From a virus: a DNA stretch of 35,270 nt. Below, piece by piece: positions 4,901 to 28,411 of this stretch; within the stretch, counting starts at the first letter, position 1, and each line of letters begins with the position of its first letter. Both the position numbers and the translations under genes were made by a program. The notes beneath the pieces were generated by a model. The model was not told the origin of the DNA and did not search any database. It was given only the letters and a program-made list of their open reading frames with translations. The stretch lies in IMG/VR virus record IMGVR_UViG_3300046011_000746, positions 1 to 35,270 of that record; one strand, 5' to 3'.

Positions 4901-5010
4901 GCAATGACTCACGCAAGGTCACATTTGGCAAACGCAAAATAGGATCAGCAAAAAAAAGCTACAACAAGCATTCACCCAAACCTAAGAAATATCGTGGACA
5001 AGGACGCTAA
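4888..5010 (+). CDS. Tiny Lys/Arg-rich protein (40 residues)
   Basis: The ATG at 4888 gives MAKVSNDSRKVTFGKRKIGS and continues with KKSYNKHSPKPKKYRGQGR. The net charge is strongly positive. I recall similar short proteins with a KHSPKxKxYRGQGR ending in other Bacteroidota phages, which argues for a conserved gene, perhaps nucleic-acid binding. It overlaps the preceding gene by 13 bp and the glycosyltransferase by 17 bp. Confidence 0.6.
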   Translation: MAKVSNDSRKVTFGKRKIGSAKKSYNKHSPKPKKYRGQGR

Positions 5011-6019
5011 GATCATACAAGTGCTTGGCATCACACAAAAGCTAAGCGGTTGTGGATGGCATAGAGTCATGCTGCCTTTGGCATTTATGCCGGACTCTTA
5101 CAACCATGTGTGCAATGTACCTACAAAAGAGATCCTTGAAGAGAGGCAGTTTGATATTTTGTTATACAATAGATTCAGTCAATTTGATATTGATTGGGAT
5201 GAAACAAAGCAGCACTTTAAAGTAGTAATGGATTTAGATGATGACTGGGAATTACCATACAATCATCCTTTGTATCATGGATATGAGGCACACAAAAAGA
5301 GGATCATTAACAACATCTTTAATGCTGATCTTGTGACATGCACAAATAATAGGATCGCTGACAAGGTAAGAAAGTACAATAAGAATGTCATAGTACTGCC
5401 TAATTGCATACCTTATGGTGAGCATCAATACAATGCTGACAAATACGAAAGCGACAAGACTCGTATTTTTTGGGCCGGCGGATCTACACACTTAGAGGAC
5501 ATCAAATTGCTAGCAAATCCTTTTAAAAGACTCACTGCATTAAAAGACATTGAGATGGTACTTGGCGGATATACTGATACAGATCCAGTGAGCAAAGCAT
5601 ACTGGGATAAGGTACACTCAATGTTTACGAATGGCGGAAAGTTAGCTAATAGAAAACTTGCAAGCGAACTGCCAAGCAATTACATGGAGCATTTTAAACA
5701 TGCAGACATTATGGTTGTGCCTTTGCAAGAGTCACCATGGCATGCGAGCAAAAGCAATTTAAAGCTACTTGAGGCAGCAGCTAAAAGATTGGCAGTGATA
5801 GTGAGTGATGTTGAGCCATACAACCTAGACAAAGATGCACCAGTGCTATGGGTTAAGAATCAAGCAGACTGGTTTAAGCATTTATCATATTTAGTAAACA
5901 ATCCAGATCAAAGAATCAAGATGGGCAATGATCTTTTTGAATGGGCAAAAAACAAATACAATCATGAGCGAATTAATGAAGCTAGAAGATCAGCATTTGC
6001 AGACCTTGTTAAAGCATAA
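4994..6019 (+). CDS. GT-B fold glycosyltransferase (GT1/GT4-like)
   Basis: The 341-residue protein starts at GTG 4994, overlapping the upstream tiny gene. The N-terminal half has the acidic stretch DLDDDWELPYNHP. The C-terminal half has the glycosyltransferase signature: TRIFWAGGSTHLEDI (start of the second Rossmann domain, about 156-170) and HASKSNLKLLEAAAKRLAVIVSDVEPY (about 250-276), where the E in LLEAAA corresponds to the donor-nucleotide-binding EX7E region of GT4-type enzymes. It should move a sugar from an activated donor in the cytoplasm. It heads a cassette with an acyltransferase-like and a GT-A-like gene; target (virion protein, DNA or host glycan) unknown. Confidence 0.8.
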   Translation: MDKDAKIIQVLGITQKLSGCGWHRVMLPLAFMPDSYNHVCNVPTKEILEERQFDILLYNRFSQFDIDWDETKQHFKVVMDLDDDWELPYNHPLYHGYEAHKKRIINNIFNADLVTCTNNRIADKVRKYNKNVIVLPNCIPYGEHQYNADKYESDKTRIFWAGGSTHLEDIKLLANPFKRLTALKDIEMVLGGYTDTDPVSKAYWDKVHSMFTNGGKLANRKLASELPSNYMEHFKHADIMVVPLQESPWHASKSNLKLLEAAAKRLAVIVSDVEPYNLDKDAPVLWVKNQADWFKHLSYLVNNPDQRIKMGNDLFEWAKNKYNHERINEARRSAFADLVKA

Positions 6020-6206
6020 GCATTTTTATGATCTATTCAAGACAACTGGCGAACTTGTAGGATTTACAAATGAGATCCAAAATGAACTGCTAGAAGTCAT
6101 GCGCATAAAAGATCCATACTTTGCATATAATGGCAGATGTGGTGCATGCGTGGGATCATTTTTAGTTAACGTATATAAAACATTCAATGAGTACATTCAT
6201 TCATAA
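5964..6206 (+). CDS. Small Cys-containing protein
   Basis: With the ATG at 5964 the product is 80 residues and overlaps the end of the glycosyltransferase by 56 bp; an ATG at 5976 is also possible. The C-terminal part reads PYFAYNGRCGACVGSFLVNVYKTFNEY, with a CxxC pair that may bind metal. I recall similar small proteins with this layout near structural genes of Bacteroidota phages but no function. It overlaps the next gene by 20 bp, so the cassette is translated as a unit. Confidence 0.55.
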   Translation: MSELMKLEDQHLQTLLKHKHFYDLFKTTGELVGFTNEIQNELLEVMRIKDPYFAYNGRCGACVGSFLVNVYKTFNEYIHS

Positions 6207-6672
6207 GACGGCCATAGTAGGGCCAAATGTCACACTAGGTGACAATGTTTACATCGGGCCATATTGTGTGATCGGTGAGCCAGCAGAGCATAAGCTATTC
6301 TGGAATGCGCCAATAGGCGAAGTTGTGATCGGTGATGATTGCGTGATCACTGGTCATGTGACTATTGATGCCGGCACAACTGACAAGACAATAATAGGTG
6401 CTGGTGTCTGGATGCTTAAGCATTCACATGTAGGTCATGACTGCGTGATAGGTAACAATGTGACGATCAGTTGCGGTGCAAAGATTGGTGGCCATACGAT
6501 TGTCGGTGATAGCTGCAACATTGGACTTAATGCAGTGATCCATCAAAAGCAGATCATAGCTAAAGGATGCATGATTGGCATGGGTGCCGTGGTGACAAGA
6601 AAGCTACACACTACACATTCAACAAAGTATGCTGGCAATCCAGCAAAGGAAATAGGCAAAAATATATTCTAA
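6187..6672 (+). CDS. LpxA-like left-handed beta-helix acyltransferase
   Basis: The 161-residue sequence is almost entirely hexapeptide repeats ([LIV]-G-x4), for example TAIVGPNVTLGDNVYIGPYC and CVIGNNVTISCGAKIGG, which fold as a trimeric left-handed beta-helix. KHSHVGHDC at 78-86 matches the LpxA-type active-site stretch, with His81 and His84 in the place of its catalytic-region histidines. It is shorter than LpxA (about 260) and lacks the C-terminal helical domain. It probably transfers an acyl or acetyl group to a nucleotide sugar or sugar, consistent with the two neighbouring glycosyltransferases. Confidence 0.8.
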   Translation: MSTFIHKTAIVGPNVTLGDNVYIGPYCVIGEPAEHKLFWNAPIGEVVIGDDCVITGHVTIDAGTTDKTIIGAGVWMLKHSHVGHDCVIGNNVTISCGAKIGGHTIVGDSCNIGLNAVIHQKQIIAKGCMIGMGAVVTRKLHTTHSTKYAGNPAKEIGKNIF

Positions 6673-7271
6673 TGAGAGTACTAATAGCTGGCTTGATATA
6701 TGGCAAAAGACCTAGATCAGTCATTATAGATAATTGCACAAAGACTGGCTATTATGCTGAAACTATCTTAATTGATGTTGAAGGCATTGCCAATGCAATG
6801 AATGAAGCTATTGACATTGCTGGCGTTGATGGCTATGATGCAATTGCTTATCTAGCAAATGACATCATTGAGCCAGAGAACTGGCTTGCTAAAAAAGTAG
6901 AGGCTTTGCAGACTTACCCAGATGCCGGCATTGTGGCAAGCAGCTTGGACAGAGAAAGGCGTGGCATAAAGAGTCAGCATATCATAAGCAACTGGCTACT
7001 TAGTATGAAGGTAGTTGATAAGATCGGCATCTTTAATGAGTCCATGTTTCCTTATGGGCCTATTGATCTGGACTATTGTGAGAGGGCCAACATAGCTGGA
7101 TTTAATACCTACTATGTGATGGACTGCTTGGCAGAGCATATAGGCGGACACGCAAGCGGTGACGAGTATGGGTATAACAAGACCGAACTATTACAAAAGA
7201 ACTGGGCCAAGCATGAAGCTGACATAAGAGGCTATCGCGATGGCACTAAAAATATAAAACTATGGAAATAA
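6672..7271 (+). CDS. GT-A fold glycosyltransferase, GT2-like
   Basis: I start at ATG 6672, which shares one base with the preceding stop, giving 199 residues. YLANDIIEPENWLAKKVEALQ (60-80) contains the ND pair (63-64) in the place of the DxD-type motif. YPDAGIVAS follows, and GPIDLDYCERANIAGFNTYYV (129-149) with His156 resembles the acceptor/base region (ED-like) of GT2 enzymes. It is short and lacks a full N-terminal nucleotide-binding strand pattern, so it may be a reduced enzyme. It overlaps the terminase small subunit by 10 bp. Confidence 0.7.
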   Translation: MRVLIAGLIYGKRPRSVIIDNCTKTGYYAETILIDVEGIANAMNEAIDIAGVDGYDAIAYLANDIIEPENWLAKKVEALQTYPDAGIVASSLDRERRGIKSQHIISNWLLSMKVVDKIGIFNESMFPYGPIDLDYCERANIAGFNTYYVMDCLAEHIGGHASGDEYGYNKTELLQKNWAKHEADIRGYRDGTKNIKLWK

Positions 7272-11388: not shown

Positions 11389-14300
11389 ATGACTAGAATA
11401 TTTATTGAAGGATATGAACTTGATTTGACGCAAGGCTTAAGCAACCAGATTACTTATGCCATTGATGATCTACAAAACTTAGATAGCAAAAGCACCAGCT
11501 TTACAAAAACAATAATATTGCCCGGCACTGCTAATAATAATAAATTGCTAGGCAATATCTTTGATTTTAACAATGCTAATTTTGACAATCCTCTTGATCC
11601 GAATGTGCTTGCAAATTTTAACGCAGCACGTAATGCATCGGCAAGAATAGAGATTGACGGATTGCAGATCATGAAAGGTATTTTGCGCTTACTTGAGATC
11701 GTACATGTTGACGGAGCAATTGAATATGAGTGCGCATTATTTGGTGAATTAGGCGGATTTATAAATGCACTTGGCAATAAAAGACTTGAGGACTTAGACT
11801 TTAGCGCTTACAATCACACATACTCTTATGCAAATATTGTGTCAAGCTGGAATACAAGTGGCAGCACTAGCTATTGCTATCCTTTGATTGACTATGGCAA
11901 TGTAAGTACTGACAAAGTAAATTTTCAATATAAGACATTTAAGCCAGCATTATTTGTGCGTGAATACCTAGATAAGATTTTTACTGGCAGTGGCTATACT
12001 TATGAATGCGATTTGTTTAATACTAATGATTTTAGAAAACTAATTGTGCCTAACAATTCAAAGCAATTAACTAAAGAGACTAATAATGTGCTTGCTTTGT
12101 CAAAGGCAATAGTTCAAGCAATGAATACTGGTGGCTCTCAAGACTTTGTAAGTTATGAGACTAAGGTAGGATCTTTATTCACTGCCAGTATTAGTGATAC
12201 TTTATTTACTTATAATGGTACGCCTACGCTTACTACTAATTTAACAATTGAACTTTTTGGTGATTATACTTTAGCTAGAAGGCCATTAACAATAGCAGTT
12301 TTGAAAAATGGAGTTGCAATATCTGGATCAAGTCAAACTTATAATGGCACTGATTTGCTTTATTATAATAAATCTTTATCTGTTACCCTAGCAACAAATG
12401 ATACTTTAAGAGTAAGGACAAGCTGCATACTTGATGATGGTGATGAGGTTAATGTGAGCGAAAGTACAATAAATGTAATAAACGATGTTGCAACAACTGC
12501 GCCTATTGAATTAGGTGATACAATGGTAATCAATAACACAATCCCAAAAGGTATATTTCAAAAAGACTTTGTGACATCCATCATGAAGATGTATAATTTG
12601 ATGATCATTGAAGATAAATATAAGACAAATCATTTAGTGATTAAGCCTTATGTTGATTTTTACACTGGTACGATTGTTGATTGGAGTGACAAGTTAGATC
12701 ATAGCAAAGCAATTAAGATCAAGCCAATGAGTGAGATCAATGCTAGATATTACAATTTTAAATATAAACAAGACAATGATTTTTACAATGAAGATTATCG
12801 CAAGAAATTTAATGAGGGATATGGTGATAGGGTGTACGATAATGGTCTTGAATTTGCTAAAGATACTGAGAGTGTTGAAATAATATTTGCGTCATCACCT
12901 TTGTTTGGCACAAGTACAACTGATAAAGTTTTTCCAGCTATTTATAAAAAATCCGACAATAATAGCAAAGAGGATCCTATGGATCATATCATGCGTATTA
13001 TGCAAATAAATAAAATTACTGGTGTTACAAGTTGGAGCATTTTAAATGGAGCGACTAACTTAGGATCAAACACTGCGTATTTATTTTGTGGACATTTAAA
13101 CAATCCAACAACGCCAAATATTGACATAAACTTTGGCGCACCACAACAATTGTTTTTTAACTTGACAAGTGGTGATTTAAGCTACAACTTATTTAATGTT
13201 TACTACTCGCCTTATATGGCAGAAATCACTGATAAAGATAGCCGTTTACTAACCGGCTTTTTTGATTTAACGGAATTAGACATTTTTAATATAGATTTTG
13301 CAAAGTATTATTTTATTGATGGCGGACTTTATAGACTTATAAAAGTGTACGATTATAGTCCAGAAAACAATGATACTACAAAAGTTGATTTGTTAAGAGT
13401 GATTGATGCAGTTGGTACTAATTTTGTACCATCAACTACAACTACTACAACTACTACAAGTACAACTACAACAACTACTACTTTAGCTACTTTTGAAGCA
13501 TCTTATAGTATGGTAAGTGCTTATGATGTTTGTAATAATGTTTGTAATAACCCAGCAAGACCAGTAGAAATATTTACGATTAAAAATGGTGGTAATACAT
13601 TTTGTACTGCTGAAACTTTAACAAGTCCTCTAATTTCAAATGGTACTATTAGTGGTACTTTTTGGATAAGTCAATGCACTGGTACAAGTAGAGAATTTAT
13701 GGTAATTCTTGAAAGCGGTCAATTTGTGGCAGCATACAGATATTTAAATTGTCAAACTTGTCCGGCCGCAACAACTACTACCACTACAACAACAACTAGC
13801 ACAACAACTACTACCACAACGGCAGCGCCTACAACAACTACTACCACAACGGCAGCGCCTACAACAACAACTACAAGTACAACTACAACTACTACAACTT
13901 ATAGTCCAGATCCTTGTGCTTGCGTAATGGTTAACTTTAGTTCTGTTGGTGGCGAAGTAGCAACGTTTAATTGCTTTGGTCAAAACGAAAACTATGTTTA
14001 TTCTACCGGAGGTATTAAATACCTTTGTGCTGCAATAATTGGCGGACTTTTACAAGCTGAAATTGTATCTGGAACTGGTACGATAGAGAATGTAGGAAAT
14101 TGCAAGACTGGCACTTGTCCGCCTCCGCCTACAACAACTACTACTACAACGGCAGCGCCTACAACAACAACTACAAGTACTACGACAACTACTACAACGG
14201 CAGCGCCAACAACAACTACTAGTACAACAACAACTACTACTACACCTCCGCCTACAACTACTACTAGTACAACAACAACTACCACTACGCTTCCGCCTAC

Positions 14301-15093
14301 AACAACTACTAGTACAACAACAACTACAACAACTTATGCTCCAATTGGATTAACTGCGACACCGGGTTGTAGCGGCGGTGCTGGCACTGGTACAATTACT
14401 GCTAATGGATTTAACGGAGGTAGTGAAAGTTTTGAGTATATTGCTATCAGTTCAACATCAAGTAGTGATGCGCTTAGTAGATTAGACAATTCAGCAACTA
14501 GAACATTTTTAGGAGGTGCTACTGAATTTACATATACTATGCTTGCAAATGCAACATATTATGTTGCGATTATGGATAATGTAGGTAATAAAGGGGTAAG
14601 CTCAGGATCGGTTGTAAATTGTGTTACTACAACTACTACAACAACAACTACAAGTACTACAACTACTACAACAACGGCTCCGCCTACAACAACAACTACA
14701 AGTACTACAACTACTACAACAACGGCTCCGCCTACAACTACAACAACAAGTACTACAACAACTACTACAACGCTAGGTTATGCTTTTGTTGATATTGCTA
14801 ATGACACGGCTGGTACAAGTATTACTAATATTACAATAGGCGGAGTGCAAGTTGATGGTGCAGTATTTCCAATAGTTGCTGGTGATGGAGCATCTGCTAC
14901 AACTACGCAAATTGGTGCATCTAGAACAATTGTAGTATCTTACACAAATGTAAGTGGTGACTCTGTCGAGGTAATTGATACTGCATCAAATCTTAATTGT
15001 GCAAGTGCAACGTCAACAAGTAGGTCATTTGCTGGACAAGTTGTAAACGATGGCGGCACATTAACGATTGCAATGTTTGACGGAACTTGCTAA
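11389..15093 (+). CDS. Tail-tip/adhesion protein with four threonine-rich tracts
   Basis: The protein has 1234 residues. Residues 1 to about 680 form a tail-tip-like part; the start has STSFTKTIILPGTANN, a pattern I recall from Bacteroidota phage tail proteins. After that, four tracts made almost only of Thr, with Ser, Ala and Pro punctuation, alternate with four compact modules. The tracts are encoded at about 13434-13485, 13768-13899, 14128-14337 and 14623-14774. The modules at 13487-13767 and 13900-14127 are Cys-rich (CNNVCNN, NCQTC; CAC, NCKTGTC). Those at 14344-14622 and 14776-15093 look like small beta-sandwich domains. This mucin-like layout suggests extended, possibly O-glycosylated stalks holding host-binding modules. 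The next gene encodes a glycosyltransferase. Confidence 0.75.
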   Translation: MTRIFIEGYELDLTQGLSNQITYAIDDLQNLDSKSTSFTKTIILPGTANNNKLLGNIFDFNNANFDNPLDPNVLANFNAARNASARIEIDGLQIMKGILRLLEIVHVDGAIEYECALFGELGGFINALGNKRLEDLDFSAYNHTYSYANIVSSWNTSGSTSYCYPLIDYGNVSTDKVNFQYKTFKPALFVREYLDKIFTGSGYTYECDLFNTNDFRKLIVPNNSKQLTKETNNVLALSKAIVQAMNTGGSQDFVSYETKVGSLFTASISDTLFTYNGTPTLTTNLTIELFGDYTLARRPLTIAVLKNGVAISGSSQTYNGTDLLYYNKSLSVTLATNDTLRVRTSCILDDGDEVNVSESTINVINDVATTAPIELGDTMVINNTIPKGIFQKDFVTSIMKMYNLMIIEDKYKTNHLVIKPYVDFYTGTIVDWSDKLDHSKAIKIKPMSEINARYYNFKYKQDNDFYNEDYRKKFNEGYGDRVYDNGLEFAKDTESVEIIFASSPLFGTSTTDKVFPAIYKKSDNNSKEDPMDHIMRIMQINKITGVTSWSILNGATNLGSNTAYLFCGHLNNPTTPNIDINFGAPQQLFFNLTSGDLSYNLFNVYYSPYMAEITDKDSRLLTGFFDLTELDIFNIDFAKYYFIDGGLYRLIKVYDYSPENNDTTKVDLLRVIDAVGTNFVPSTTTTTTTTSTTTTTTTLATFEASYSMVSAYDVCNNVCNNPARPVEIFTIKNGGNTFCTAETLTSPLISNGTISGTFWISQCTGTSREFMVILESGQFVAAYRYLNCQTCPAATTTTTTTTTSTTTTTTTAAPTTTTTTTAAPTTTTTSTTTTTTTYSPDPCACVMVNFSSVGGEVATFNCFGQNENYVYSTGGIKYLCAAIIGGLLQAEIVSGTGTIENVGNCKTGTCPPPPTTTTTTTAAPTTTTTSTTTTTTTAAPTTTTSTTTTTTTPPPTTTTSTTTTTTTLPPTTTTSTTTTTTTYAPIGLTATPGCSGGAGTGTITANGFNGGSESFEYIAISSTSSSDALSRLDNSATRTFLGGATEFTYTMLANATYYVAIMDNVGNKGVSSGSVVNCVTTTTTTTTTSTTTTTTTAPPTTTTTSTTTTTTTAPPTTTTTSTTTTTTTLGYAFVDIANDTAGTSITNITIGGVQVDGAVFPIVAGDGASATTTQIGASRTIVVSYTNVSGDSVEVIDTASNLNCASATSTSRSFAGQVVNDGGTLTIAMFDGTC
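14636..14774 (+). repeat. 48-bp tandem repeat coding for threonine tract 4
   Basis: The word CAAGTACTAC recurs at 14651, 14699 and 14747, exactly 48 bp apart. The first two units are nearly identical over their whole length, including the GGCTCCGCCT segment; the third differs slightly. Each unit encodes 16 residues of the type TTTTTSTTTTTTTAPP. Tracts 2 and 3 also contain shorter repeated units ending in GGCAGCGCCT. Such arrays can change length by slippage or recombination without shifting the frame. Confidence 0.85.
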
Positions 15094-15106
15094 TAAAAAA
15101 AACAAT

Positions 15107-16072
15107 ATGATATATATTTGCACACAACCTAAGATAGTTTATTACGCATGGCATTTAGAAGTTATGCTCACCAACTTTAAGTCGGTGGGCATACCAGATA
15201 ACAAGATACATGTTTTGTTATCTGTTAGTAAAGATCAAAACGATAAGACTAACTGGCCAGAGACAACTGCTATGTATGAAAGGTTAAAACAGAAATTTAA
15301 CACAATAGCTTTTTTTGAGTACAAAGATACTCGCGTGATGCCTAATTACATACCTAGTGTGATCATGAATGCAGTCAAGCAACATTATCAAGCTTATCCT
15401 TATTTGCAAATGGAAAATGTCTTTTTGCATGACTGCGATATGATATTCACAAAGCCGGTAGATTTTAGTGATCTAGAGCAAGATGATAGCTGCTATGTTA
15501 GCGACTCAAAAAGCTTTATTTGGAGTGATTATATACTAGAGAAAGGTCAAGACCTTTATGAAGATATGTGCGACATTGTAGGCTTAGATTATAGCATACC
15601 AATAAAGCATAGATTGCATAGTGGCGGATCTCAATATATTTTTAAAAATACTGACTATAAATTTTGGCAAAAAGTTGAGAGCGATAGTGTGGCTTTATTT
15701 GATTATTTTCAAAAAAGCGAGCCATTAAGAGTGCAAAAGAATCCTAGCTATTACGGCATCCAGCAATTCACTGCTGGCATGTGGGGTATGCTTTGGAATT
15801 GCTGGTATCATGATCTTGATGTAAAAATAACGCCAAGACTAGATTTTTGCTGGGGTACTGATCCGATTGAGAAATGGAGCAAGTGCGAAATTTTCCACAA
15901 TTCTGGGGTGACTTATGACATTGGTAAAAATCATAATATATTTTACAAAGGCGCTTACACAGACAAATTACCTTATGAAGATGTGATGAATACTGAGTAC
16001 AATGAGACCTTTGGATCATTTAATTATACTAACCTAATAAGACAAGTTGCACAAAACACTTGTTTAAAATAA
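15107..16072 (+). CDS. GT-A-like glycosyltransferase next to the threonine-rich tail protein
   Basis: I start at ATG 15107 after an A-rich leader (AATAAAAAAAACAAT), giving 321 residues; the earlier frame at 15068 overlaps the tail gene. The N-terminus (MIYICTQPKIVYYAWHLEVM) fits a nucleotide-sugar-binding start, and FLHDCDMIFTKPVDF at 107-120 has the metal-binding DxD (D109, D111) in the context seen in peptidyl-hydroxyproline/serine glycosyltransferase-like families. Conserved-looking Trp/His-rich patches follow (HSGGSQYIFKN, FTAGMWGMLWNCWYHD). The gap to the tail protein is 13 bp and to the tape measure 6 bp. A role in glycosylating the tail protein is inferred from adjacency; the fold assignment is firmer than the substrate. 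Confidence 0.7.
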   Translation: MIYICTQPKIVYYAWHLEVMLTNFKSVGIPDNKIHVLLSVSKDQNDKTNWPETTAMYERLKQKFNTIAFFEYKDTRVMPNYIPSVIMNAVKQHYQAYPYLQMENVFLHDCDMIFTKPVDFSDLEQDDSCYVSDSKSFIWSDYILEKGQDLYEDMCDIVGLDYSIPIKHRLHSGGSQYIFKNTDYKFWQKVESDSVALFDYFQKSEPLRVQKNPSYYGIQQFTAGMWGMLWNCWYHDLDVKITPRLDFCWGTDPIEKWSKCEIFHNSGVTYDIGKNHNIFYKGAYTDKLPYEDVMNTEYNETFGSFNYTNLIRQVAQNTCLK

Positions 16073-16078
16073 TAAAGC

Positions 16079-17884
16079 ATGGCAAGTAAAAACACAACAA
16101 TTGCGGCCGAGATACAAATAAATACTAAGTATTCGGGTAAGACTTTAAAGGATTTAAGGACAGACTTAAAAGGTTTAAAAGATGATCTTGAAAATGCAGA
16201 GTTTGGATCTCAAGAGTTTAATAGACTAAATAAAGAGATTGATGAATTGCAAGGTCATTTAAACGGCACAACAAAAGCTGCTGCTGGATCTGTTAAGGAA
16301 TTAAAAGAACTTAAAAAGCAACTTAAAGAAACTGCCGCCGGATCGGATGAATTTAAAAAGTTATCAGCACAAATTAGAGATGTTGAGGATGGTCTAGAAA
16401 ATGCAAAAGCTGGTGCGAATGACTTTGCTGGTGCATTAGAGAATGCAGACGGCCCAGTTGGTATGCTAGGCAAAGGAATAAGACAACTAGAGATTGCGAC
16501 ATCTTCATGGGGTGCTGCTTTAAAAGCTAGTGGTATCGGATTGCTTGTTGCATTGGTAGCTGGTCTTGCTGCCGCATTTGCAAAGAATGAAGATGCAATG
16601 AAAAAACTTGAGCCTATTATCACTCAGTTTGGTAGAATCTTAAATGGCATTTTAGGAGCCATGCAGCCTATAATAGATGCTTTTATTGAGTTAGCAACTA
16701 AAGCAATGCCTTATGTCGCAGATGCATTTAGAGTGGCTTATTCTGCTTTAAGTTCATTCTTGCAAGGCATTGGCATGGTTGGATCGGCGGTTAAAAAGTT
16801 TATAAGTGGTGACTTTGCCGGTGCGTGGGATGATGCTAAAAAGTCTGTAACAGAATTTGGCACCAGATATGAACAAGCAAACAAAGGATTTATTGCTGGC
16901 GCTAAAGAGTTAACTGACACAGAGAAAGCAGAGCAAGCTAAAAGATTAGCTGATCAAAAAGCAGCAAATGAGAAAGCAGCAGCCGAAAGAAAGGCAGCAA
17001 AAGAAAAAAGAGACGCAGAAGAGAAAGCAAGACTTGAGAAAGCAAAAGCAGATGCTAAAGCCTATGAAGATTTTGACACTGCTTTACAACAAAGACTTAT
17101 TGAACTTGATGACGAAAGAAAAGAAAAGGCAAAAAAACGCGCTGAGGAATTATTGGAGGCTCAAAAATTATTTGATAAATTTTACAATGATCAACTTGTA
17201 AAAATAAAAGAATTAGAGCAACAAAGAGAGGACACAACCTTTGCAACAAATATAGCAATTCAGCAAAGCTGGGCAAACTTAGGAACTAACATTGCCAACA
17301 CTATTGGCAACCTTAGTGGCGCTTTAAAAGATGGTAGTGACTTAGCCAAGGCTTTTGGTATTGCTCAAGTTGCAATTTCTACTGCTGCATCAATAGGATC
17401 AATTTTACTAAGTGGCAAGCAACAACAAGCAGAATACAATAAAGCTATTGCAGCCGGTAATGCAACAATCGGAATAGGTATTGCAAATGCATTTATTCCG
17501 GGCATGCAAGGTCTAGCAGCCGGCCAGATATTATCTGGTAAAGCAGCAGTAGGATCAGCAATTGCTGGTAAAGCAATATCTAAAACAAACACGGCAGCAC
17601 AAGTTATTGCAGCCGGTGTTGCTGGTGCTGCACAAATAGCAGCAATCTTAGCAAGCAAAAAATCAGTATCATCTGGTAGTGTTGGCGGTGGTGGTGATAG
17701 CAATAACAATGTATCAATATCACCATCTGCACCATTAATGCCAAGCGCGTCAACAACAACCTTAAATCAAGCACAAGTTAACCAAATGGGAAACATGGCT
17801 GCAAGAGCGTATGTTGTAGAAAGTGACATAAGCGGAAATCAAGAAAGAATCACAAGATTAAACAGAGCCGCTAGGATCAGCTAA
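16079..17884 (+). CDS. Tape measure protein
   Basis: The 601-residue protein has the composition of a tape measure: coiled-coil N-terminus (TLKDLRTDLKGLKDDLENAE and following), a hydrophobic stretch at about 151-168 (SGIGLLVALVAGLAAAFA), a long charged Ala/Lys/Glu helix (about 285-385), Ala/Gly-rich helical hydrophobic segments (about 425-540), and a Ser/Asn-rich end. By the usual rule of about 0.15 nm per residue it implies a tail near 90 nm, consistent with a siphovirus. It fixes tail length during assembly and is threaded with the chaperone, which here is encoded 6.5 kb upstream. Confidence 0.88.
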   Translation: MASKNTTIAAEIQINTKYSGKTLKDLRTDLKGLKDDLENAEFGSQEFNRLNKEIDELQGHLNGTTKAAAGSVKELKELKKQLKETAAGSDEFKKLSAQIRDVEDGLENAKAGANDFAGALENADGPVGMLGKGIRQLEIATSSWGAALKASGIGLLVALVAGLAAAFAKNEDAMKKLEPIITQFGRILNGILGAMQPIIDAFIELATKAMPYVADAFRVAYSALSSFLQGIGMVGSAVKKFISGDFAGAWDDAKKSVTEFGTRYEQANKGFIAGAKELTDTEKAEQAKRLADQKAANEKAAAERKAAKEKRDAEEKARLEKAKADAKAYEDFDTALQQRLIELDDERKEKAKKRAEELLEAQKLFDKFYNDQLVKIKELEQQREDTTFATNIAIQQSWANLGTNIANTIGNLSGALKDGSDLAKAFGIAQVAISTAASIGSILLSGKQQQAEYNKAIAAGNATIGIGIANAFIPGMQGLAAGQILSGKAAVGSAIAGKAISKTNTAAQVIAAGVAGAAQIAAILASKKSVSSGSVGGGGDSNNNVSISPSAPLMPSASTTTLNQAQVNQMGNMAARAYVVESDISGNQERITRLNRAARIS

Positions 17885-24679: not shown

Positions 24680-27600
24680 ATGGAAATAATAAATGTAACG
24701 GACGAGATCATTGAAATAAATGTCACTGAGGCGGTTGTTAATGTAGTAACCCAGAATGGTGCTTATCCATTGCCAAGCAATGTTTTTAGCGTATTTGGTA
24801 GGGTGGGCAATGTTGTAGGGCAAGCTGGTGACTACACAACTAGCATAGTGGGTGAGGGTACAAACCTTTATTATACTCAAGCAAGATTTAATACTGCTTT
24901 TGGAAATAAGACAACAACTGATCTAGCTGAGGGAACGAATCTTTATTACACAGACGCTAGATCAAGAGCGGCAATTAGTGAGAATATAACTGGACTTGAG
25001 TACTCAAGCGCAAGTGGTATCTTTAGTCTTGCAAATGGCTATCTTATCCCAACACAAGCAATGCTAGACGCAAAGCAAGACGATCTTAATGGCACCGGCA
25101 TAGTTAAATCAACTGCTGGCACCATCTCTTATTTAACAGATAATACTGCAAACTGGGATGCTGCATATAATGACAAAATCAATAGTGCATCTGTTAGTGG
25201 TACAACAACAAAAGTTTTAACTTTAAACCAGCAAGATGGCGGCACAATTACTGCAAGCTGGACAGATGACAATACAGATGCAGTGACGAGTGTTTTTGGT
25301 AGAACTGGTGCAGTCATTGCAGCAAATGGTGATTACACTACAAGTCAAGTGACAGAAGGATCAAATCTTTATTTTACAAATGCAAGGGTGCATAGTGCTA
25401 TAAGTGGCACGGCTCCAATTAGTGAGGTTAGTGGAGTTGTAAGCATAAGCCAAGCCGGAGCCAGCACAAATGGTTTTTTAAGCAGCACAGATTGGAATAC
25501 ATTTAACGGCAAAGAAAACTTTTTAGCTAGCGGCACAACGGCGCAATATTACAGAGGTGACAAGACATTCCAGACTCTAGATACTTTAGCAGTACCAGAG
25601 AATACAAATCTTTATTATACTCAAGCAAGATTTGACACTGCTTTTGGAAATAAAAGCACAACCAATTTAACAGAAGGCACAAATCTTTATTACACAGATG
25701 CAAGAGCAAGAGCGGCAATTACTGGCACGGCTCCAATAGATGTAAGCGGTGGTGTAGTAAGCATAAGCCAAGCTAGTGGTGCAAGCAATGGTTATTTAAG
25801 CAGCACAGATTGGACTACGTTTAATAACAAGCAAGCAGCTTTAAATGGCACTGGATTTGTTAAAATATCTGGCACCACAATAAGCTATGACAACAATACT
25901 TACTTAACAACTATTAGCGGCATAGCTGCTGGTGGTGAGTTGAGTGGTACTTATGCAAATCCTACTTTAGTAAATAGCGCGGTGACTGGCAAGGTTTTAA
26001 CCGGACTTAATTTAACCGGTGGCGGAACTATTGCTGATACTGATAGCATCTTAGGTGCATTTGGCAAAGTACAAAATCAAATTAGTGCTTTGGTTGGTGG
26101 CGTTATGTACGAGGGTACTTGGAATGCATCAACAAACACACCTACTATTACAAGTAGCGTAGGATCTAAAGGTGACTATTATATAGTTTCAACTGCTGGA
26201 TCAACAAACATAAACGGCATCACAAGTTGGAATATAGGTGACTGGATCATATTTAATGGCAGCACTTGGGATAAGGTAGATAACACAGACGCAGTAAGTT
26301 CGGTTAACGGATATACTGGTGCAGTTAGTTTAGTAACTAGCGATGTGCCAGAGAGCGGCAGTTTATACTTTACAAATGCTAGAGCGATAGGATCAACTTT
26401 AACTGGTTATACAAGTGGATCTGGTGTAGTAGCTGCAACAGATACAATCTTACAAGCTATCCAAAAGCTTAACGGCAACGTGAGCGGTTTGGTTACTGGT
26501 GTGAGTTCGGTGTTTGGACGCACTGGTGCAGTAAGTGCAACCAGTGGTGATTACAATACAAGTCAAGTAACAGAGAATACAAATCTTTATTATACAGAGG
26601 CAAGAGTTTCTGCAAATACAGACGTAGCTGCAAACACTGCTGCAAGGCACGCGGCGGTTACAATAGGCACTGCAAATGGTTTAAGCTTAAGCACGCAAGC
26701 TTTAAGTTTAGGACTTGCTAGCGGATCTGCAACTGGTGCTTTAAGCAGTACGGACTGGAATACATTTAATAATAAGTTAAGCACGGCTACGGCTGCGTCT
26801 ACTTATGTACCTTATACCGGTGCAACTGCAAATGTAAACTTAGGCACAAATAGTTTAACTGCGGGAGTTGGTAGCTTTGCATCAAGTGGCGGTGGTGATA
26901 CATTTACTATTAACCATTCAAGCGGTAGCGGCATAGCTTTAAACATAACCAAAGGTGGAAATGGCGAAGGTCTTTATATAAACAAAACAAGTGGTAGTGG
27001 TAACGCTGCAACTATTATAGGTACATTAAACGCAACTACTTTAGTTAAGAGCGGAGGTACCTCAAGTCAATTTTTAAAAGCTGACGGATCGGTGGACTCA
27101 AGCACTTACTTAACTACAAGCGCAGCATCAAGCACTTACCTACCTTTAGCGGGTGGTACGCTTACTGGTGCTTTAAGTGGTACAAGTGCTACGTTTAGTG
27201 GTAAGGTTGGAATAGGAGCAACTCCTTATACAAGTACAACTGCTATAATTAGAGCAGTAAGTGCTACTTCTACAAACTATGCTCTTATTATTGAAGACAA
27301 TGCGAGTAATCAATTATTTGAAATTAAAAATAATGGTGCTGCTACATTCTCAACTAGTATTAGCACTGGTACTTTAAGTCTTAGTGGTGGAACAATGCAA
27401 AGTAGTGGTGATTATTATATAGGCACGAATAATGCAAACTTTATTCAGTTCTATACAAGCAATCAAAATAGAATGATAATCACAAGCAATGGTGAAGTTG
27501 GTATTGGGGTTACACCTACAACTGGAAATAGATTTTGGGTAAAAGGAAGTGATTCATCATTTGGCAATACATCCTTAATTACTCAAAATGCTGGAGGAAC

Positions 27601-28411
27601 TATTACGTTTTTAGTTAGAAATGATGGCGCTGCTCAATTTGCAAGTAGCGATACTAATGGTTGGTATGCTGGGTTTTCAAATTCTTCTACAAACTTTGCA
27701 TATATGGGTGCTACTGCTCAATTTGCAAATAGTGGTGGAACTGCAACTGATTTTGGTATTAGGTCTGCAAATGCAATGGCATTTTATACAAGTGGTGGAA
27801 ACGAACGAATTAGAATCACATTGGGGGGTTATTTAAAAGCAAGTAATACTGGGACTTACGCAAGTTCAGGTGGCTCAATGCATGAATTAAGAAGCAATAG
27901 TTCACAAACTCTTTTAGCTACTAATGCAAACAATGTATCTGGTGATTTATTATTTAACTGCAAATTAGGAGCAAATGCAGATAATACATCATCTTACTAT
28001 ATGGTAGGAGAAACTGGTGGTGCTAATAGAATTTTAATATTTGGAAATGGTAATATACAAAATACTAATAATAGTTATGGAGCAATTTCGGACATTAAAT
28101 TAAAAGAAAATATTACCGATGCAACACCTAAGCTACAAGATTTGTTAAAAGTTAAGATTAAGAATTACAATTTTATTGGTGATGATAAAAAACAAATTGG
28201 AGTAGTTGCACAAGAATTAGAGGAAATATTCCCAGCACTTGTTAGTGAAAGTCCAGACTTTGAAACTGATCAAGAAACTGGCGAAAGGATTGACTTAGGT
28301 ACTACAACAAAATCGGTTAAATATTCAGTATTTGTACCAATGCTTATAAAAGCTATCCAAGAGCAACAAGCGCAAATAGAGGAATTAAAAGCAAAAATAC
28401 TATCTTTGTAA
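24680..28411 (+). CDS. Tail fiber with C-terminal S74 intramolecular chaperone
   Basis: The 1243-residue fiber contains repeated modules of the form VFGRTGAV...GDYTTSQVTE.TNLYYT.AR (around 24785, 25291 and 26510, with a divergent copy near 26305), alternating with SGTAPI-SGVVSISQA and SSTDWNTFN units, typical of trimeric fiber shafts. A variable region follows, then the C-terminal S74 domain from about residue 1134: AISDIKLKENI, with Ser1137 and Lys1142 spaced like the self-cleaving Ser/Lys pair, and KKQIGVVAQELEEIFPALV. The domain helps the fiber trimerise and is then cut off. The last ~70 residues form the usual coiled-coil end. Confidence 0.88.
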   Translation: MEIINVTDEIIEINVTEAVVNVVTQNGAYPLPSNVFSVFGRVGNVVGQAGDYTTSIVGEGTNLYYTQARFNTAFGNKTTTDLAEGTNLYYTDARSRAAISENITGLEYSSASGIFSLANGYLIPTQAMLDAKQDDLNGTGIVKSTAGTISYLTDNTANWDAAYNDKINSASVSGTTTKVLTLNQQDGGTITASWTDDNTDAVTSVFGRTGAVIAANGDYTTSQVTEGSNLYFTNARVHSAISGTAPISEVSGVVSISQAGASTNGFLSSTDWNTFNGKENFLASGTTAQYYRGDKTFQTLDTLAVPENTNLYYTQARFDTAFGNKSTTNLTEGTNLYYTDARARAAITGTAPIDVSGGVVSISQASGASNGYLSSTDWTTFNNKQAALNGTGFVKISGTTISYDNNTYLTTISGIAAGGELSGTYANPTLVNSAVTGKVLTGLNLTGGGTIADTDSILGAFGKVQNQISALVGGVMYEGTWNASTNTPTITSSVGSKGDYYIVSTAGSTNINGITSWNIGDWIIFNGSTWDKVDNTDAVSSVNGYTGAVSLVTSDVPESGSLYFTNARAIGSTLTGYTSGSGVVAATDTILQAIQKLNGNVSGLVTGVSSVFGRTGAVSATSGDYNTSQVTENTNLYYTEARVSANTDVAANTAARHAAVTIGTANGLSLSTQALSLGLASGSATGALSSTDWNTFNNKLSTATAASTYVPYTGATANVNLGTNSLTAGVGSFASSGGGDTFTINHSSGSGIALNITKGGNGEGLYINKTSGSGNAATIIGTLNATTLVKSGGTSSQFLKADGSVDSSTYLTTSAASSTYLPLAGGTLTGALSGTSATFSGKVGIGATPYTSTTAIIRAVSATSTNYALIIEDNASNQLFEIKNNGAATFSTSISTGTLSLSGGTMQSSGDYYIGTNNANFIQFYTSNQNRMIITSNGEVGIGVTPTTGNRFWVKGSDSSFGNTSLITQNAGGTITFLVRNDGAAQFASSDTNGWYAGFSNSSTNFAYMGATAQFANSGGTATDFGIRSANAMAFYTSGGNERIRITLGGYLKASNTGTYASSGGSMHELRSNSSQTLLATNANNVSGDLLFNCKLGANADNTSSYYMVGETGGANRILIFGNGNIQNTNNSYGAISDIKLKENITDATPKLQDLLKVKIKNYNFIGDDKKQIGVVAQELEEIFPALVSESPDFETDQETGERIDLGTTTKSVKYSVFVPMLIKAIQEQQAQIEELKAKILSL

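Follow-up and report, generated by a model that had tools for sequence, protein, structure and literature searches.

What does the gene found just behind a phage tail protein studded with runs of threonine do, and does its product act on these runs? The question is raised by a viral sequence of 35,270 nt (IMG/VR record IMGVR_UViG_3300046011_000746), hereafter called the window, which has no near DNA match among named phages. The features at issue are the following:

11389..15093 (+): tail protein, proposed substrate, 1234 aa; behind a core come four compact modules held apart by four poly-Thr tracts
11389..13410 (+): core of the tail protein, aa 1-674, conserved whether or not a phage has poly-Thr
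13435..13482 (+): poly-Thr tract 1, aa 683-698, 16 residues
13483..13770 (+): M1 module, 96 aa, flanked by tracts 1 and 2; in the close group the exchangeable modules fall into about 10 families, of which M1 is one
13771..13899 (+): poly-Thr tract 2, aa 795-837, 43 residues, interrupted by Ser and AAP
13900..14130 (+): M7 module, 77 aa, flanked by tracts 2 and 3
14131..14334 (+): poly-Thr tract 3, aa 915-982, 68 residues
14335..14625 (+): M3 module, 97 aa, flanked by tracts 3 and 4
14626..14772 (+): poly-Thr tract 4, aa 1080-1128, 49 residues
14773..15090 (+): module M2, C-terminal, 106 aa
15107..16072 (+): enzyme of PHROG 4417, 321 aa, predicted to be a GT-A peptidyl-Thr O-glycosyltransferase
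15431..15439 (+): DxD motif of the enzyme, D109-C-D111, both Asp invariant in family alignments
15896..15898 (+): His264 of the enzyme, in an HxxG motif, invariant in family alignments
16079..17884 (+): tape measure protein gene, 3' of the enzyme gene

A threonine-rich tail protein and its neighbour

The enzyme gene sits between the tail protein and tape measure genes. Its start is the ATG at 15107, 13 nt past the tail-protein stop, which is the spacing given in an earlier note on this DNA; the family alignments begin at this ATG and not at the start of the longer TTG ORF (15068). That note had also announced four Thr tracts of about 20 to 70 residues. The four tracts are there, near-pure and broken by Ser, Ala-Ala-Pro or Pro, but the smallest, with 16 residues, falls slightly below the announced range. 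The richest 20-residue segment of the tail protein contains 16 Thr; in 1000 shuffles of the same Thr-rich protein this number never rose above 14, and the other proteins checked in the window have at most 6 Thr per 20 residues.

Sequence-family searches gave no convincing family for the core. In its predicted structure, which is of moderate quality (pLDDT 73), residues ~230-372 confidently form a C1q/TNF-like domain; the same fold also occurs in solved phage tail proteins, and the predicted domain says little about the position of the protein in the tail. The C-terminal part, compared in 25 close relatives (window included), is made of about 10 module families whose order varies, with the Thr tracts as joints. 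It is reasonable to view the tail protein as a variable tail component that is exposed, probably binds a ligand and has stalks as spacers. Shuffling among close relatives of the modules between Thr tracts can be followed at 13435-15090 of the window and in loci L002-L027.

The predicted glycosyltransferase

The enzyme clearly belongs to PHROG 4417 (E 4.2e-53, with residues 1-314 aligned to positions 1-291 of the 293 of the profile), a family annotated as "unknown function", some members of which are called 'prophage pi2 protein 34'. It has no Pfam or NCBIfam match and, even by profile search, nothing below E 0.3 among PDB sequences. Naming it by sequence against solved structures was dropped since no match was significant, and GT8 (glycogenin) membership was found by none of the Pfam, NCBIfam and PDB profile searches. 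A defence system was ruled out, there being no PADLOC match.

An AlphaFold2 model of the enzyme, built from 45 sequences, had a pLDDT of 96.3 and a pTM of 0.92. When the model was submitted to Foldseek, the nearest structure was glycogenin (E 6e-7), followed by UGGT and COLGALT1, with a probability of 1.00; the identities were 9-12% and the TM scores about 0.36-0.50 (normalised to query), the likeness to glycogenin (TM about 0.45-0.5) being remote. The computed model has the Rossmann-like GT-A fold and the alignments contain the DxD metal/nucleotide-sugar motif. Residues invariant in both family alignments (22 and 45 sequences) include D74, R76, D109, D111, G174, Q176, Q219, H264, G267 and K281. 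Because the remote structural matches are consistently of the GT-A type and these residues are invariant, the prediction that the enzyme is a metal-dependent GT-A glycosyltransferase is well supported. The earlier note had recognised a GT-A-like protein with a DxD motif, and both recognitions agree with the model and with the invariance of D109-C-D111. It had also perceived a likeness to hydroxyproline/serine glycosyltransferases, which was not recovered: the nearest folds are those of glycogenin (GT8; PDB 3t7m and others), UGGT (GT24) and COLGALT1 (GT25), all of them remote and all, as in the window enzyme model, GT-A with a DxD. UGGT and COLGALT1 act on proteins, as proposed here for the window enzyme; the acceptors of glycogenin are a Tyr and glucose. 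The predicted fold does not fix the acceptor. In GT8 enzymes a conserved His in an HxxG-type motif is a metal ligand and, by analogy, His264 is proposed as the third metal ligand.

Tract and enzyme among relatives of the tail core

Relatives were sought with the tail-protein core (aa 1-674), the enzyme not being used, and the 75 having at least 600 nt downstream of the core were counted. Poly-Thr follows the core in 13 of them, and in all 13 the enzyme is directly downstream. In the 62 others, where the next long ORF begins right behind the core, the enzyme was found neither there nor elsewhere in the stretch (0/62), so that there are no mixed states. The association has a Fisher P of 8e-15, a value which ignores kinship, the proper control being the tree. 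On a tree of 32 cores (six poly-Thr rows of which came from the enzyme search and are hence enzyme-bearing by selection), tract and enzyme were jointly gained or lost at least five times, four of these changes being forced by well-supported branches. The sister pair L449/L450, for instance, differs in both tract and enzyme and the backbone stays close. The claim of the earlier note that the enzyme is dedicated to the tracts thus withstands the search for independent occurrence (13 both, 62 neither, 0 mixed); the several joint changes on the tree and the recurrence of the pairing in distant phages, described below, speak for it as well.

Loci L450, L451/L452 and L458 have a C-terminal extension of 490-670 aa with neither poly-Thr nor enzyme, from which it appears that the enzyme tracks poly-Thr and not the mere presence of an extension. 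Three other sugar-related genes (4994-6019, 6187-6672 and 6567-7271 in the window) are retained in these same loci and constitute a negative control. They make up a glycan-type cluster (4994-7271) with a phrog_7162 glycosyltransferase, a hexapeptide acyltransferase-like protein and a weak GT2 match; the idea that this whole cluster belongs to the cassette was ruled out by its retention in loci without poly-Thr. As to the extensions themselves, Cys-containing repeats (e.g. YNTCVDCVNYLVYRDTNPCSATYNNYRVNGVNVG) are seen in place of the poly-Thr modules in L450 (8001-11500), L451, L452 and L458.

The pairing in unrelated phages

The enzyme family is abundant in viral contigs, with at least 589 confirmed matching stretches in one viral collection; the loci examined were the best-scoring 80 per search. 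Among 81 loci (~33-46% identity), a poly-Thr ORF was present directly upstream in 55 and anywhere in the stretch in 70. When stand-alone enzymes were clustered at 60% identity, a poly-Thr protein was directly upstream in 26 of the 35 clusters and within 8 kb in 3 more; within that distance none was found for 6 clusters. By comparison, 3 of 120 random viral loci had any poly-Thr ORF. The core-relative counts, the joint changes on the tree and the recurrence in distant phages together rule out chance adjacency. The pairing occurs in phages of Enterococcus, Lactobacillus, Staphylococcus, Arcanobacterium and Chryseobacterium, among others; cultured carriers include Lacticaseibacillus phage PLE3 and Enterococcus phage phiFL1A. 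The upstream poly-Thr protein is not always of the same kind: it is the major tail protein in phiFL1A, PMBT8 and TPWB06, the major capsid protein in 4995_1, probably also a capsid protein, judging by gene order, in R3.3 and R9.1, and a small, mostly Thr protein in LpeD and Bromius. The pairings have the Thr tail in common, whereas the protein to which it is attached differs.

A reverse scan for 12 consecutive Thr codons returned 120 loci. The enzyme was present in 13 of them, directly downstream of the poly-Thr ORF in 12, as against 0/120 among random loci. For the plausible poly-Thr loci with room downstream, the figure was 11 out of 60; most are without the enzyme. Among the other genes found downstream of poly-Thr, 4/42 match GT2 and 1/42 matches the phrog_7162 glycosyltransferase; therefore, the task may fall to other enzymes there, or part of the tracts may go unmodified. 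Endolysin-type (VanY, PG_binding_1) or GT2 genes were sometimes seen just downstream in the poly-Thr loci without enzyme (L127-L246).

Since tract and enzyme appear and disappear together across many unrelated phages, the enzyme very probably sugar-coats the stalks. The reading that we consider likely, from the comparison of sequences and the predicted fold, is that of a portable glyco-stalk cassette, composed of a dedicated PHROG 4417 peptidyl-Thr O-glycosyltransferase and its substrate, the poly-Thr stalk. The tail protein would carry poly-Thr linkers between exchangeable modules; the enzyme would use a nucleotide-sugar donor and metal-dependent GT-A chemistry to O-glycosylate Thr (perhaps Ser) in the tracts, a reaction that would probably take place in the cytoplasm of the host, ahead of virion assembly or in its course; the product would be mucin-like sugar-coated spacers on the virion, from which the phage might profit, for example through extended stalks, resistance to proteases or shielding. 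Counted against the cassette are the remoteness of the structural likeness, the 6 clusters out of 35 without poly-Thr, the majority of reverse-scan loci without enzyme, and the existence of cellular homologues that are fused and have no poly-Thr partner (see below). Taken as a whole, the interpretation of the earlier note is partly supported.

Phage glycosyltransferases acting on host surface glycan, phage DNA or virion proteins exist, and the window enzyme could be a genuine glycosyltransferase directed at a host surface glycan, the phage DNA or another virion protein, its adjacency to poly-Thr being incidental. The presence of other glycan-type genes in this phage and the six stand-alone clusters lacking a nearby poly-Thr protein are in line with such a target, which we nevertheless hold to be improbable given the perfect co-occurrence with poly-Thr among the core relatives and the repeated joint change on the tree; furthermore, the other glycan genes do not co-vary with the tracts and the enzyme recurs beside unrelated poly-Thr proteins.

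Cellular homologues and the probable acceptor

The enzyme domain is also found within a longer ORF in the chromosomes of Sphingobacterium, Chitinophaga, Pedobacter and Mucilaginibacter. The two cellular ORFs examined have a fused second domain, with a weak Glyco_transf_7C match. These homologues, which have no poly-Thr partner, are placed in RiPP-like operons. One such operon (L387:3626-10803) comprises a small ORF with a GG leader, a radical SAM/SPASM maturase, a C39 peptidase exporter and a LanC-like protein; more generally, the 73 neighbours from 25 cellular loci gave 13 LANC_like, 9 Peptidase_C39 and 4 Radical_SAM matches. Because the cellular homologues accompany genes for the modification of ribosomal peptides, a peptide acceptor is favoured for the family. 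L387 and other Bacteroidota loci (L367-L433) possibly represent a new class of glycosylated RiPPs.

The peptide need not be a Thr tract. The enzyme could modify the compact modules of the tail protein, or Ser rather than Thr, a variant with which two observations agree: the GG-leader peptides beside the cellular homologues are rich in Cys, Ser and Thr, and Ser recurs inside the tracts, where it makes up 7.5% of the residues across enzyme clusters. We judge it unlikely, since what the proteins upstream of the enzyme have in common is runs of Thr, often 5-7 long, and no module is common to all of them; several consist of a capsid or tail-tube domain with a Thr tail only.

Extending the cassette reading to the whole family, we would say with less assurance, but still as the favoured view, that PHROG 4417 consists of widespread, dedicated poly-Thr O-glycosyltransferases; that, in phages from several bacterial phyla, they would form an exchangeable cassette usable on any exposed virion protein, be it of the capsid, the tail tube or the tail tip, in some cases via programmed frameshifting; and that the same family would decorate ribosomal peptides in the RiPP operons of Bacteroidota.

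Codon usage and repeat dynamics of the tracts

The Thr codons of the tracts are mixed (72 ACA, 63 ACT, 9 ACG and 4 ACC), similarly to the genome at large, and two neighbouring Thr codons are the same in a fraction of 0.35, slightly below the expected 0.41, which suggests that the tracts are kept as protein and not as a DNA microsatellite; an artefact of the latter type was ruled out by the codon mixture. Repeat copying also shapes the tracts, as shown by recent tandem duplications of 30-48 bp whose copies are 95-97% identical, and tract length varies widely between close relatives, from 12 to 134 residues. A view of the tracts as flexible linkers that stay unmodified, or as a result of repeat slippage, with the enzyme travelling along by linkage, would account for these dynamics, but is very unlikely in view of the mixed codons and of the failure of linkage to explain why the same enzyme family stands beside unrelated poly-Thr proteins in phages of Bacteroidota and Bacillota.

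Comparison with known systems

Mycobacteriophage virions are glycosylated by phage-encoded glycosyltransferases (Freeman et al. 2023, Cell Host Microbe; via PMC12619734, PMC11256854), the glycans being, as the work is cited in PMC12619734, on the C-termini of capsid and tail-tube subunits; in cluster O mycobacteriophages, glycosyltransferase genes lie among structural genes (PMC4351075). The window resembles these systems in having a phage-encoded glycosyltransferase gene among structural genes; across the pairings, these are tail, capsid or tail-tube genes. A tblastn search of phage records with the window enzyme returned no Mycobacterium phage, and by this search the enzyme is not a close relative of the mycobacteriophage ones. 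A further difference is that the poly-Thr signature and the strict one-to-one pairing of enzyme and substrate were not found described for mycobacteriophages. With eukaryotic mucin-type O-glycosylation, the likeness, Thr/Ser/Pro-rich stalks with the dense O-glycosylation proposed here, is one of layout only, and the window enzyme differs in matching no Pfam family.

Poly-threonine phage proteins yielded nothing relevant in the open-licence literature, an earlier description elsewhere being possible. Glycosylation of phage virions is known; what appears to be new, as far as the searchable open literature shows, is this enzyme family, together with a poly-Thr substrate and a strict pairing of the two. 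PHROG 4417, with its at least 589 matching stretches, had no assigned function; the fold and the partner proposed here give this widespread phage protein family a testable one. Sugar-coated virions would become predictable from sequence alone, which bears on phage-host interaction and on the immune recognition of phages, as well as on the finding of new peptide-glycosylating enzymes that would act in the cytoplasm of bacteria and take very simple acceptors.

A few additional observations were made. In the Enterococcus phages VPE25 and 9183, in TPWB06 and in bIL285, which is carried by Lactococcus lactis IL1403 (L042:7680-7990, L050:5720-6000, L047:5650-5990 and L040:5860-6010), a poly-Thr tail is found at the stop codon of the capsid or major tail gene. 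The tail runs on in another frame in VPE25, 9183 and TPWB06, and follows the capsid stop in frame in bIL285. A CCCAAAA motif precedes the stop in 9183, and the TPWB06 gene ends with CCC-TAA. Judging from these arrangements, recoding likely adds a poly-Thr tail to some copies of the capsid or major tail protein in the four phages. Elsewhere in the window, positions 24680-28411 encode a protein of 1243 aa whose C-terminal domain is a Peptidase_S74 (endosialidase chaperone) one and which is probably a tail fibre or spike.
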